Positions 3,522 to 60,017 of a DNA stretch of 64,000 nucleotides are shown here, one piece after another; position 1 is the first letter of the stretch; each line of letters opens with the position of its first letter. The position numbers were made by a program, and so were the translations under genes. Origin of the DNA: Cercospora beticola (Eukaryota > Ascomycota > Dothideomycetes > Mycosphaerellales > Mycosphaerellaceae); NCBI RefSeq assembly GCF_033473495.1, contig NC_088939.1, forward strand, positions 124,001 to 188,000, given 5' to 3'. The notes beneath the pieces are model-generated. The model was not told the DNA's origin. It did no database searches and worked only from the letters and a program-made list of their open reading frames with translations.

Positions 3522-5446
3522 TCAAGCTCGGGCCAGATCCAACTGTCCATATTTACAGCCGGCCAAGGCACGATCGACTATCTCCAAAGCTCGTAATAAT
3601 TCCTCTTCCCTGAGCCGCCTACCAACCAACTGCAAAGATACAGGGGCATTGACGTACTTCTCTGGGCCATACTCGTCGTACATCTGACGATAGTATGCAT
3701 CGATTGAACTCATGGCATGTTTCTGCTCTGCCGGGTACGAGGCCCAGGTATCAGCACTGTTGATGACGCCGGTAGGGAATGCGACTGCCGGTAAATCAAG
3801 TAAATTGTACACCGAAGAATACCCCCAATACCTGGATTCATCGTGTCCGCTTGCCAACGAGGCGTTAACTGGAGTGAGCAAAACATCAACATCGCTAGAA
3901 ATCCAGCGAGAGAGGTGGCTCGATCGCAGTTTATCGACAATCGTGTTGATCTGAATAACGTCAGCAAAGGCGAAGTGTCATGGACTTCACGACTCAATGG
4001 TTTCGCTGCGTTTCGTCATATTGACTGGGGCAGCGAAGGAGAGAAGTGATTGTCCTCCATGATCTACATACATACCTTCCACGTTTCCTGGACTTTATAA
4101 GTCTTTGACGCCTTGGAGTCGAGCAACCACTGCATGATGGGCACAGCATTCTCCTTCCCCGACTTCAGAATCTCGAAGTACTCCTCGCCTCCGTCCAGGA
4201 AATAGAGCTCGTCGATCAAGCCTACGAGCTGTTTGTTCTCGACGGGATCCCATTCGAAGGTAGAATGTCCTGCTCTCTGGAGTGCCTGCTGGACACGTAG
4301 CATTTCTCGCCGGATTGGAGGGTGTGGGGCGACCACGCCATCATGCCATAAAATTCCCACTCTCAAACGCCCTGGCATGTGTACATCGAGCTTCCACGGC
4401 AATTCAATCAGGCTGGGCTCGATATCCCAAGGTTGGCAGGCGAGAATGCTGTCACATATCAGTTGCAAATCTGCAACGCATGTAGCCATGGGCCCCACGC
4501 AGCCAATTATGTTTTCCATGCCGGCATGGAGACCACGCAGACCGCCATGTGGAAGACGCGCAACACTCGGTTTGAGTCCATATAGACCACAGAAGCCGCT
4601 CGGCACACGGATCGATCCACCTCTATCAGCGGCCCTTGTTAGCTGGTCGGTACTCAATGAAGAGCTCGGATCCCCGCGAGGCGGACTTACATGTCTGCGC
4701 CTATTCCTACGACGCTACCGCGCAGACAGATCAAGGCGGCTTCACCACCGGAGCTTCCTCCACACGTCAAAGTGGTGTTATGAGGATTTAGCGTTCTGCC
4801 AAAAAGGTTGCTGTCGGTTTCCAGTGCCATGATCAATTGAGGGTTGGTCGTTTTGACGTGGAAGATGGCGCCCTGCCGCCGCAACATATGGACGACGACC
4901 GAGTCTTCCTGCGAGCGGAAGTCGGCCCAAGCCCAAAGTCCAGCTGTGGCCCTGCTACCTTTGAGCTCTATGTGTTCTTTGATGGATATAGGCAAGCCAT
5001 GCAGAGGTCCGATGGTCTTGTTGTGCTCTGCCATGTAGTCATCGAGCGCATGAGCCGTGCGCAGAGCTTCGTCGAACATGAACTCGGAGACACAATTCAC
5101 CTAAAACAAGGCTCTGTCAGTTGTCGCTCGTGCACACCAGGATCGTCCGACTCACAGCTTGATGAGCGATCGCTGCCCTTTTGCAGAAGGCCAGAGTGAC
5201 CTGAGTCGCGCTCCATCGCCTGCAACGAATTTTGCCCAGAATATTTGTAGTGCTTGATTCAGTTATCTCCAACTCCAGCACGCTTAAGATGCCACTTCTC
5301 TCCGGCAAACTCATTGGATCTCGCTCCGACCAGGGCAGCGACGCGTTGATCCGCCATTCTGCCGGTATTTGTTCGATGATTTCACGCTGTCTTTCGTTCA
5401 GCTGCACGGCAGCAGAAAAGCCTCGGCGAGACTCCCTGTTTCTCAT
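3522..5446 (-). CDS. Amidase, amidase-signature family (fungal acetamidase/AmdS type)
   Basis: Hydrolyses a carboxamide to acid and ammonia, probably in the cytosol. Four exons, 5446-5156, 5100-4691, 4622-4076 and 3950-3522, joined over GT-AG introns, give 558 residues, close to Aspergillus AmdS. The Ser-cisSer-Lys triad is complete: Lys138 in PISIKEH, Ser213 in GGSSGG and nucleophile Ser237 in GADIGGSIR, with the same 75- and 24-residue spacing as fatty-acid amide hydrolase. The DIGGS motif is assembled across intron 2. Intron 3 (4075-3951) is long at 125 bp and carries several stops; a cryptic mini-exon there cannot be excluded. Only 210 bp separate it from the divergent C6 regulator, so shared control is plausible. 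The substrate is not visible. Confidence 0.88.
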
Positions 5447-56900: not shown

Positions 56901-59371
56901 GCCCGAAGAACAATCAGACTCTTTCACTGCTGCCACTTAGTCATTGACATGCCTTCCACGCAACATCGCCTTCGTCCTGACCCGGTGATAAATTCTACCG
57001 GGGACCTTGGACATGCAGCAAGTTCCAAGCTGCATGGGGCCGCAGAGTCGCCACTGGCGTACCCCATTGCCTGCCACTCCTTGATGATCATTGTGGCATA
57101 ATGCCGTCCTTATTGCGGATTGTGCACTGAATCGCGTGAAGTCTGCAAACATCAGGTGTTCAAAGTAGGGTGCCAAGTCGCTCCAAGTGGACATCATCGC
57201 CACCGGCGGGCTCTTTGGTCGCTCATTTACGTGCAGGTGCTTGGGAAACGCCGCTTCTCGACTGGGATCCAGGTTGACGGTATTGTTTACTGATCATTGT
57301 TGATTGGAGACTCTTCTTACATCTTCTCTGCATGTTTTATAATTCTGTTTGCAAGTAGCAAACCTATGCAGCAGATACTTAATATCTGCTGCTGGTTAGA
57401 TAGAATCATCAAGCCATTGAGTATCTCATCAGCGTGTTTCAACAATCATTTGCAGCTTTCCGCAACTTTGGTCGCGCCTTGTACTCCGCGGAATCGAGGG
57501 AGTCGATGCCATTGCCAACCGTTGTTTGCGATCACATGGAAATCATGCAGCATTGGCCCCAGGTGAGACACCCCAGCTGGATGAGTGTCGTTGCCAATCA
57601 GTCTTTCACAAAGTGGGCATTGCTCCACCGGCGTCGTTATTGAAAACATCTGCCCGCCACCAGGAATACGGTAGTATGTCGTCCACAGTGCGAGACAATT
57701 GCTGGACATCGCTCGAGCGCCTGGCCGAGATTCTGCATGCTGAGTTCTTGAGCATCGGGTATATACAGCAGTAGATACTTTTTAGAGTTTGTCAATAGTT
57801 TGCTTGGATAGATTCTGCCGAACTTGAACCTAAGCATGCCAACAGGTAACAAACTTCAATCGGTTCTTCACACTAAGGAAGACGCGGTCTGGACTCCGGG
57901 GCTTCTCAGTGCCAGAGTGACAAATTTACCGCATTTGGATGTCGATCATCAGGTGGCCAACCCGTCAGGAGTTTATGGTATTGCCTAGGAGGAGCCAGCT
58001 GTGCGACTAAGCTAGAATAGGCCGATTTATTGATCGTGGGTCAAGGTGACGCTGTGCAAAGGCCCATTACAGTGCACGTCTTAGTCCCGGCGCGGCCCCG
58101 TTTGCAGGGCCACCATGACTCTTGATCGAAAGATTGCTTGGTCGAACAGAGAAGTAAGAGCTTGCCGGGAAGAAGTCGTCGACTTGTGACTGTTGGCAGA
58201 TTTGGCAAATCCATGTTTAGTGCAGAGAAAAGTAGGACATTCGTCGTAAGACTCGGGTCTGGTACAACGTTGGATAACGCCTTCGCTCGGATCTCCAATA
58301 CCAGTGTACAGTCCAGCCACTGAATCGACCTCGCGAATATTATCGTTAATGTGCTGCCACCGCGATCGTCTAGTCGCCTTTTCTGGACCACCGTCACGTT
58401 GTGCTCTGGTCTGTTGCTTCATCGCTCCAACAACGCCGTGCAATTGGCTGCATCCTTGAACGCGGGTGCACGCTTGCGATCAGGCCTCAGAGCTTGTCGA
58501 TCGCCCGTGCATGCGCGTAGTCTGCCTAGCAGATGAGGCTTCCTCAGCTGCGAACGGCAAGCATTCGCTAGGTGAGGCACGCGGATCTCCCAGTTGGGCA
58601 GGCCGGTCGTACCGGGCGGAGGAGTACTTCAGTCCGGGTAAAATAGGTAGTCAATCGCAATGATCCTGGTCCTTGATCTCTCTCACTGGCCTTGGCAACC
58701 ACCACAGGGTCTCGGATTGATCGCGGTTGACTCGTCCGATCATGCCGATGCCTACTACACTGTCTCCTTGAAAGTTTCTTTGACTGCCATTGCCGCCATG
58801 ACTGCCACTCCAGCACAAGTCGCTAGAGTTGTTGCGACTGCCTTGCAATGAGACCGCTTTTCTGGCGTTATCTCGGTTCTAGAGGGCGAGTAGTGTGGTG
58901 ACTGCTTGCTATGTATTAGCGTCCTATACTTGAACAAGAACGCTCCAGAAGGGGAAATCCGTGTTGGGGCTGGCAATTCGATGCCCCAATGCCATTCAAT
59001 GACGATAAAAGAGGGGACCATCTCCGGTATAGCGCAGAAGCGACTCTGATACTGGACGTTGTCGTTGATGCAGGTCCATGAAGGATCTGGGAGTGTGTGT
59101 TGATGGCATGAAGTGTGTGAGCCGTGAGTGGTGAGACTTCGGAAGGCATGTACGCCAAGCTTTATGCATGAGTGCATAAAACACAGTACACAGCACAAAT
59201 CCACGACGTCCATCCACATCTCCACGCGCCTTAGGCAGCCGCGCCGCAAACCAACAAATGCAGTAAACAGCTTCACTTCGCCCTCTACTTTCACGAAAAC
59301 AACAATGTCGCGCGGCTGAGCGCACCATATTCACTCCTTCGTTCACCCAGAACATTCACGATCACAACAAC
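56901..59371. other. Gene-poor region upstream of the H4 variant
   Basis: 2.5 kb. cagcagata/tatctgctg form a 9-bp inverted repeat near 57369-57391. On the minus strand near 57630-57480, CPLCERLIGNDTH...SHLGPMLHDFH resembles the CxxC...H...H finger found near the C-terminus of some fungal ankyrin/STAND proteins, but the flanks do not support a gene. The last 300 bp are the promoter of the H4 variant, with a pyrimidine-rich leader (cttcactttcgaac-like) before the ATG. Confidence 0.35.
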
Positions 59372-60017
59372 ATGGCGCGCTTTCGGGAGTCCAACGCGCC
59401 CGTTCATTTCCGCTCCGATCTCCCAAGCGCATCGGCCCCATCGAGCGGCAAAGCCAGAATGCCTCCCACACCCGCAACCACGGCCTTCAACCGCACTCCT
59501 GCGGCAGCATCAAGCAGTGGCCACATCAACCGCACTCCGGCTTCAACAGGTAGCAGCAAGACAGCAGGGCAACCCACTCCCGCCCGCGGCGGCAAACAAT
59601 TCTTCGGCGGCAAAACCACTGCCTCATCTGCTGCTGGTGGATCACGAGGACTTGGCTTAGGAGGCAAAGGTTTGAAGCGGCATCGGTTCGTTACTCTTCG
59701 CTTGATTTCTCCAGATTTCCTCTCACTGACTTTCTCACAGCAAAATCCTCCGCGACAATATCCTTGGCATCACGAAGGGCTCGATCCGCCGTCTCGCTCG
59801 TCGTGGCGGGGTCAAGCGAATCTCTGCCACGATCTATCAAGAAACTCGAACCGTCCTACGCAAGCGACTGGAGACTCTGTTGAAGGACATTTGTGCAGTC
59901 GTCGAAGTTTCTGGACGCAAGACGGTCTGCACGAGCGATGTGGTGTTTGTGTTGAATCGCCACGGAACTCCGATCTATGGCTTTGGGCAGGCACAGCGAG
60001 GTGGAATCGCCGGATGA
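59372..60017 (+). CDS. Divergent histone H4 variant with long N-terminal tail
   Basis: 196 residues from exons 59372-59685 and 59741-60017; the intron interrupts the codon of the arginine equal to H4 Arg19. The C-terminal half is an H4 histone fold: [41 protein letters not shown], then [19 protein letters not shown] and IYGFGQ. Canonical K16-R17-H18-R19-K20 corresponds to K102-R103-H104-R105-K106. Differences from conserved H4 are many after helix 2 ([21 protein letters not shown]), far more than canonical H4 tolerates. In place of the 20-residue tail there is a Ser/Thr/Pro/Ala-rich extension of about 100 residues with two NRTPA motifs. It should enter nucleosomes with H3 or form a specialised particle; location and timing are unknown. 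The exon join restores a full fold, so I regard the gene as functional. Confidence 0.9.

Follow-up and report, generated by a model that had tools for sequence, protein, structure and literature searches.

A long-tailed histone H4 variant in Cercospora beticola, very probably of the H4E type

How far can histone H4 be altered and still be built as a histone, and what would such an altered form be used for? The question is raised by a gene of the leaf-spot ascomycete Cercospora beticola, which lies in the window analysed here, i.e., a stretch of 64,000 nucleotides (NCBI RefSeq assembly GCF_033473495.1, contig NC_088939.1, positions 124,001 to 188,000 of the forward strand). A preliminary description, made from the letters of the window, took one interval for a histone H4 variant with a tail of about 100 residues and a rewritten fold. 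Its product has neither the near-invariant fold nor the short acetylatable tail of canonical H4. The gene is intact, its product has a predicted H4 histone fold with the basic patch kept, and it groups with fungal variants apart from canonical H4.

The gene and its product

In window coordinates, the gene consists of the following parts.

59372-60017, + strand: H4 variant gene, two exons, stop included; spliced product of 196 amino acids
59372..59685, + strand: exon 1, beginning with ATG at 59372; the N-terminal tail up to residue 104, plus two bases of codon 105 (canonical R19)
59686..59740, + strand: intron of 55 nt, GT-AG, phase 2, within the R19 codon of KRHRK
59741..60017, + strand: exon 2, with the third base of the R19 codon, then K20, the histone fold, the C-terminal 12 residues and the stop
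59372..59425, + strand: distal tail tip, 18 residues, the tail part best common to Mycosphaerellaceae relatives
59675..59744, + strand: basic patch KRHRK (H4 K16-K20), interrupted by the intron
59305..59319, + strand: possible upstream open reading frame MSRG (four codons plus stop), separated by 52 nt from the H4 variant ATG, with A at -3

Start, end and strand had been given correctly, and chance is excluded as the source of the likeness to H4 (phmmer E 5e-31 to solved H4). When GT/AG pairs are tested over 59641-59780, a single model stays in the H4 frame from KRHRK through to the end. Its reading frame and splice sites are intact, and along its entire length the spliced product shows 100% identity with P0001, which is annotated as 'Histone H4 [Cercospora beticola]'. 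The MSRG frame could be part of the transcript only if transcription starts 5' of it. Third-position C fractions are 0.38 for this gene, 0.40 for a second variant described below and 0.46 for canonical H4; these values are too close among the three genes, and codon bias was dropped as an argument about expression level.

The tail, counted up to R19 of KRHRK, has 105 residues, compared with 19 in canonical H4, and it is rich in Ser, Thr and Pro as had been described: S, T, P, G and A make up 63%, and there are four S/TP sites. Six of the 105 residues are lysines. K5, K8 and K12 are replaced by G, R and G; the alignment has gaps in this region, with a lysine at the following position, 13. The KRHRK patch is kept with both K16 and K20. 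Beyond GFG the protein continues for nine residues, as against one in canonical H4.

Over residues 24-100 the protein is identical to human H4 at 45 of 77 positions, divided into 21 of 25 for residues 24-48 and 24 of 52 for residues 49-100. AlphaFold2, run on a 52-row alignment, predicts three histone helices at the expected places (117-126, 136-162 and 169-178), with block means of pLDDT at 76-96 over residues 121-190 and at 48-58 over residues 1-110; the low scores of the whole model (mean pLDDT 65.4, pTM 0.41) are due to the disordered tail. The 50 Foldseek matches listed among solved structures, all at 58-62% identity, belong to nucleosome entries or to entries whose titles point to work on nucleosomes or histone modifiers; the top matches among those listed are nucleosomal chains of about 60% identity, e.g., 1kx5_B. 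The 60 phmmer matches listed are all named H4. From the predicted helices and the nucleosomal matches it follows that helices 2-3 are rewritten in sequence but the fold is not, and in this form, for sequence and not for shape, the claim of a rewritten fold stands.

Pfam returns a single match for the window protein, CENP-T_C (E 0.0097, 16.4 bits against a cut-off of 28.1), and the label TAF for two of the svf1-linked proteins introduced below, P0121 and P0122 (22 bits against a cut-off of 21). Both labels were set aside as sub-threshold or borderline histone-fold cross-matches.

Relation to H4E and to a second variant beside svf1

A protein search with the window product gave 1747 matches, and the family set was taken from the 120 listed. 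When 19 canonical or tandem canonical H4 rows are dropped, 101 of those 120 are fungal-type variants similar to the window protein. This set is redundant (15 Aureobasidium rows, nine nearly identical rows), and counts over 42 species rows are preferred. On our own assignment of fungal orders and classes, used throughout, the named variants presumably come from Dothideomycetes, Leotiomycetes, Xylariales and lichen fungi. A phylogeny was built from 47 rows and 87 columns, with 45 variants (the 42 and three svf1-linked rows) and two canonical rows. It sets the variants apart from the canonical rows with support 100/99, the bootstrap not having settled and most deep forks being open, and it pairs the window row with that of C. 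zeina (98/88).

A diverged H4 of Neurospora crassa, hH4v, was reportedly described by Hays et al. in 2002. Both it and the window protein are diverged H4 variants that occur beside canonical H4 genes, and the two are likened by description only. The N. crassa variant is called an orthologue of H4E, the product of hheA in Aspergillus nidulans, in a study that reports H4E throughout Pezizomycotina with function unknown, and that names P. fijiensis, C. zeae-maydis ('H4E1') and Mycosphaerella sp. Ston1 among its Dothideomycete members (Flipphi et al. 2024, PMC10878826). Among the papers listed by the literature search there was no other study of H4E, with subscription journals mostly outside its reach; what it returned for 'Cercospora beticola' together with 'histone H4' concerned, by title, maize drought only. 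No protein named as hheA of A. nidulans or hH4v of N. crassa is among the matches listed (120 per search). Trypanosome H4.V and rice H4.V are H4 variants too, but of other lineages, and can be likened by name only.

The window protein shares with H4E, as published, the conserved H4 core, divergent and longer ends, the basic patch and the loss of tail lysines. The preliminary description of an H4 with a long tail, a kept basic patch and changed helices 2-3 is correct, but the variant is less exceptional than implied, as it groups with many fungal variants of a type published as H4E. There are also differences. The tail of 105 residues has a lineage-specific tip, whereas the N-tail in A. nidulans is reported to be only five amino acids longer than canonical. 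The published H4E gene model has up to seven introns, with an exon 2 of 29-32 nt and intron losses allowed, while the window gene has one intron. In Eurotiomycetes and Dothideomycetes, H4E is reported to lie between nudA and svf1, a position that is diagnostic there but not defining (PMC10878826); the window gene is beside neither. The genes that bear on this comparison are listed below.

C8:431108-431462: canonical H4 gene, whose introns, both of phase 1, interrupt the codons for residues 3 and 49
C5:644518-645206 (L007 4519-5207; P0122): second H4 variant, adjoining svf1, with a long S/P/R-rich tail
C5:642415-642953: svf1, profile match

On C5 the window gene lies at 183 kb, svf1 at 642 kb and the dynein heavy chain at 872 kb, and it is another H4 variant that adjoins svf1. 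Because the window gene is away from svf1, and a second variant is there instead, we take it for a relocated or separate H4E-type copy. Elsewhere in the genome, C4:3006008-3006258 (L008 about 5009-5259) resembles H4 but is decayed: its frame is broken and it contains a stop.

The phase-2 intron in codon 19 is common to the window gene and the svf1-linked variant, and the canonical H4 gene does not have it. The svf1-linked variant has an extra phase-0 intron after codon 64, preceded by an exon of 136 nt, a length matched in the published H4E model by the 32+16+88 nt that separate i1 from i4. The window gene has none of the published introns other than the codon-19 one, which is consistent with i1, and we infer from phase and position that it is i1. 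The same intron is probably common to Aureobasidium and Pseudocercospora, as suggested by apparent read-through in three proteins: in P0098, additional residues separate R19 from K20, and in P0081 and P0061 the sequence ceases to follow the family immediately ahead of K20. By description, tree and intron, the window gene is very probably of the H4E type.

The svf1-linked variant (P0122; alleles or orthologues P0121 and P0123) resembles the window gene in its same-codon, same-phase intron, its long S/P-rich tail and its changed helices 2-3; it differs in tail sequence and has 46 of 77 fold positions in common with the window protein. Searches with this variant or with a mixed alignment returned mostly canonical, largely tandem H4 proteins, and among the matches listed the useful rows were three (P0121-P0123) from the svf1-linked query and none from the mixed alignment. 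When the three svf1-linked rows are held together in the tree, the likelihood lies above that of the free tree by 7.64 (p 0.756). Since the constrained tree scores higher, the free search missed a better tree, and the position that it gives to P0121 cannot be relied on. Holding the Cercospora rows of both variants together gives AU p 0.134 with four rows and 0.421 with five, values that are compatible with a Cercospora-specific origin of both variants but do not demonstrate it.

P0121, taken to be from another C. beticola assembly, represents the svf1-linked locus as well: it is identical to this genome at 100% over its first 44 residues and at 88% over its tail, with 89 of 98 aligned tail positions in agreement and eight further residues inserted. 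Helix 1-loop 1 agrees at 26 of 28 positions, and the rest of the fold at 23 of 53 (30 of 53 differ). The C. berteroae sequence, compared with the copy in this genome, agrees at 44 of 53 positions in the rest of the fold and at 48 of 79 in the tail. A search of this genome found no second copy of the P0121-type fold. The divergence of P0121 rests on a single annotated protein, and error or introgression are possible causes. An improbable reading is that one Cercospora chromosome carries two H4E-type loci, the conserved long-tailed window gene and an svf1-linked locus whose H2B-facing helix 2-3 region occurs as hyperdivergent alleles in a single species, the interface of the latter being under diversifying or balancing selection, as in genetic conflict.

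Kept and replaced residues

The counts in this section refer to the 42 species rows, except where the larger redundant set of 101 rows is named. The assignment of H4 residues to DNA contact is general background, apart from a few residues named in the H4E study. R35, R36, R39, R40, K44, R45, T80, D85, Y98, G99 and F100 are present in all 42 rows, K79 and R92 in 41, I46 in 39 and R78 in 38, and the window protein keeps all ten of the loop-1 and loop-2 residues examined (35, 36, 39, 40, 44-46 and 78-80). The sites that face H2B are mostly replaced: Y72 is kept in three rows, H75 in five, Y88 in three and K91 in none, with F for Y88 in 34 rows and N or R for K91 in 25 and 11 rows, respectively. 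The window protein has Y72V, H75V, Y88F and K91N. It also has G for K77, a residue kept in 7 of 101 rows of the redundant set. Among the sites of the four-helix bundle, E74 is retained in 37 of 42 rows, D85 in all, R92 in 41 and D68 in 34, and the window protein retains all four. Mean pairwise identity is 84% for residues 24-48 and 57% for residues 49-100.

H2B has one match in the genome, which we take to keep the partner residues E76, E93, R99 and L100, in what we assume to be the usual numbering. In published work, H4 Y72, E74, H75 and R92 contact H2B E76, R99, E93 and L100 (PMC9659345). H4K91 is reported to form a salt bridge with H2B, its glutarylation to promote dissociation of H2A-H2B, the K91E change to destabilise yeast chromatin, and succinylation of K77 to promote release of the dimer (PMC9081332). 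With H2B-facing residues replaced in H4 and their partners in H2B unchanged, it follows that the dimer-tetramer joint would be retuned and probably weaker; since E74, D85, R92 and mostly D68 are retained, it would be retuned rather than lost. What is new here is that loop-1 residues R35, R36, R39, R40, K44 and R45 are invariant while the H2B-facing Y72, H75, Y88 and K91 are mostly replaced, that the tail tip has a motif, RSD followed by V, I or L, and that the window gene is distinct from the svf1-linked copy on the same chromosome.

The motif occurs in 20 of 101 tails, all of them within a 27-row set of Mycosphaerellales and allies (one Polychaeton included); this set, and a set of seven Mycosphaerellaceae, were chosen after the motif had been seen. 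When the tails of the 27-row set are shuffled, RSD(V/I/L) is matched on average 0.03 times, and at most twice, in 2000 trials. In the seven Mycosphaerellaceae, mean identity over the first 20 residues is 58%, compared with 20% after shuffling; beyond the tip it is 46% compared with 31%, i.e., the tails are there only modestly alike. Tail length among the 27 rows ranges from 29 to 115 in the gene models as deposited. A different tip, approximately MVNERPxQF in a pattern chosen by eye, is found in 15 mostly Pleosporalean rows (e.g., P0066, P0068, P0084, P0091, P0096 and P0101). This suggests that the tails consist of lineage-specific conserved tips on variable linkers.

Proposed role and its alternatives

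Our preferred reading, to which we give an even chance, is that the window gene encodes an H4E-type replacement H4, which would pair with H3, wrap DNA, hold H2A-H2B differently and carry a disordered tail for recruitment. The mechanism is read from residue patterns and may be set out as follows. The variant would pair with ordinary H3, by analogy with A. nidulans, where H4E is reported to be nuclear and to meet H3 in BiFC (PMC10878826), and would enter some nucleosomes. The altered surface of Y72V, H75V, Y88F and K91N against an unaltered H2B, together with the lost K77, would make the dimer-tetramer joint looser or differently tuned, and such a joint would ease the release or exchange of H2A-H2B. 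The S/T/P tail, which is disordered and has a conserved RSDLP-like tip, may act as an arm for recruitment or phosphorylation, in place of the acetylatable tail with K5, K8 and K12. The variant would probably be used at a low level or conditionally. Several points count against this model: in A. nidulans neither deletion nor overexpression of H4E is reported to give a phenotype (PMC10878826), the tail beyond its tip is only modestly alike, the gene has at most one of seven published introns, and it lies away from svf1.

The lack of a phenotype on deletion would also suit a dispensable paralogue, an old H4 duplicate drifting under relaxed selection, with a tail grown by low-complexity expansion. 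Change is indeed fast, the folds of C. beticola and C. zeina being identical at 60 of 77 positions, and tail length varies widely in the 27 rows. This change is, however, patterned, with eleven of the named sites invariant in 42 rows and mean identity unequal between residues 24-48 and 49-100; the frame and splice sites are intact, the intron position is apparently common to relatives, and the tail tip is conserved. The conservation pattern argues against simple decay, and we consider such a paralogue unlikely.

It is similarly doubtful that the gene encodes an H4 specific to one stage, be it sporulation, mating or infection, when chromatin would be compacted or remodelled. When nitrogen is lacking at 37 C, the A. 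nidulans gene is reported to rise in comparison with canonical H4.1, and the window gene has its one possible upstream reading frame, but the H4E-GFP signal is reported absent from A. nidulans conidiophores and ascospores (PMC10878826). That the protein works outside the nucleosome, like TAF or CENP-T, is very improbable, since its sole Pfam match, CENP-T_C, is also given to canonical H4 fusion proteins and so appears to be a general cross-match, while the contacts of loop 1 and loop 2 are kept, as is YGF at the C-terminus, and the listed phmmer matches bear the name H4.

The genome has canonical H3 on C8 and a separate H3 at C7:1511831-1512276, which is CENP-A-like by sequence reading. A third H3-type gene is found at C2:3771606-3771905 (L022), 48% identical to H3 over the match, and is a possible partner for an H4 variant. 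A special chromatin state, as had been proposed, is possible for the window variant, while centromere-like particles find no support here.

H4 is held to be nearly unchangeable, and yet a variant of it, without known function, is reported to be kept throughout a subphylum. The svf1-linked locus, if borne out, would be unusual in that a histone fold has diverged strongly within one species. For the window gene, the combination of frozen loop-1 DNA contacts with replaced Y72, H75, Y88 and K91 makes the function of such variants accessible to a simple biochemical experiment on the stability of the dimer-tetramer joint, and the tail tip, being conserved, may serve as bait for finding a partner.
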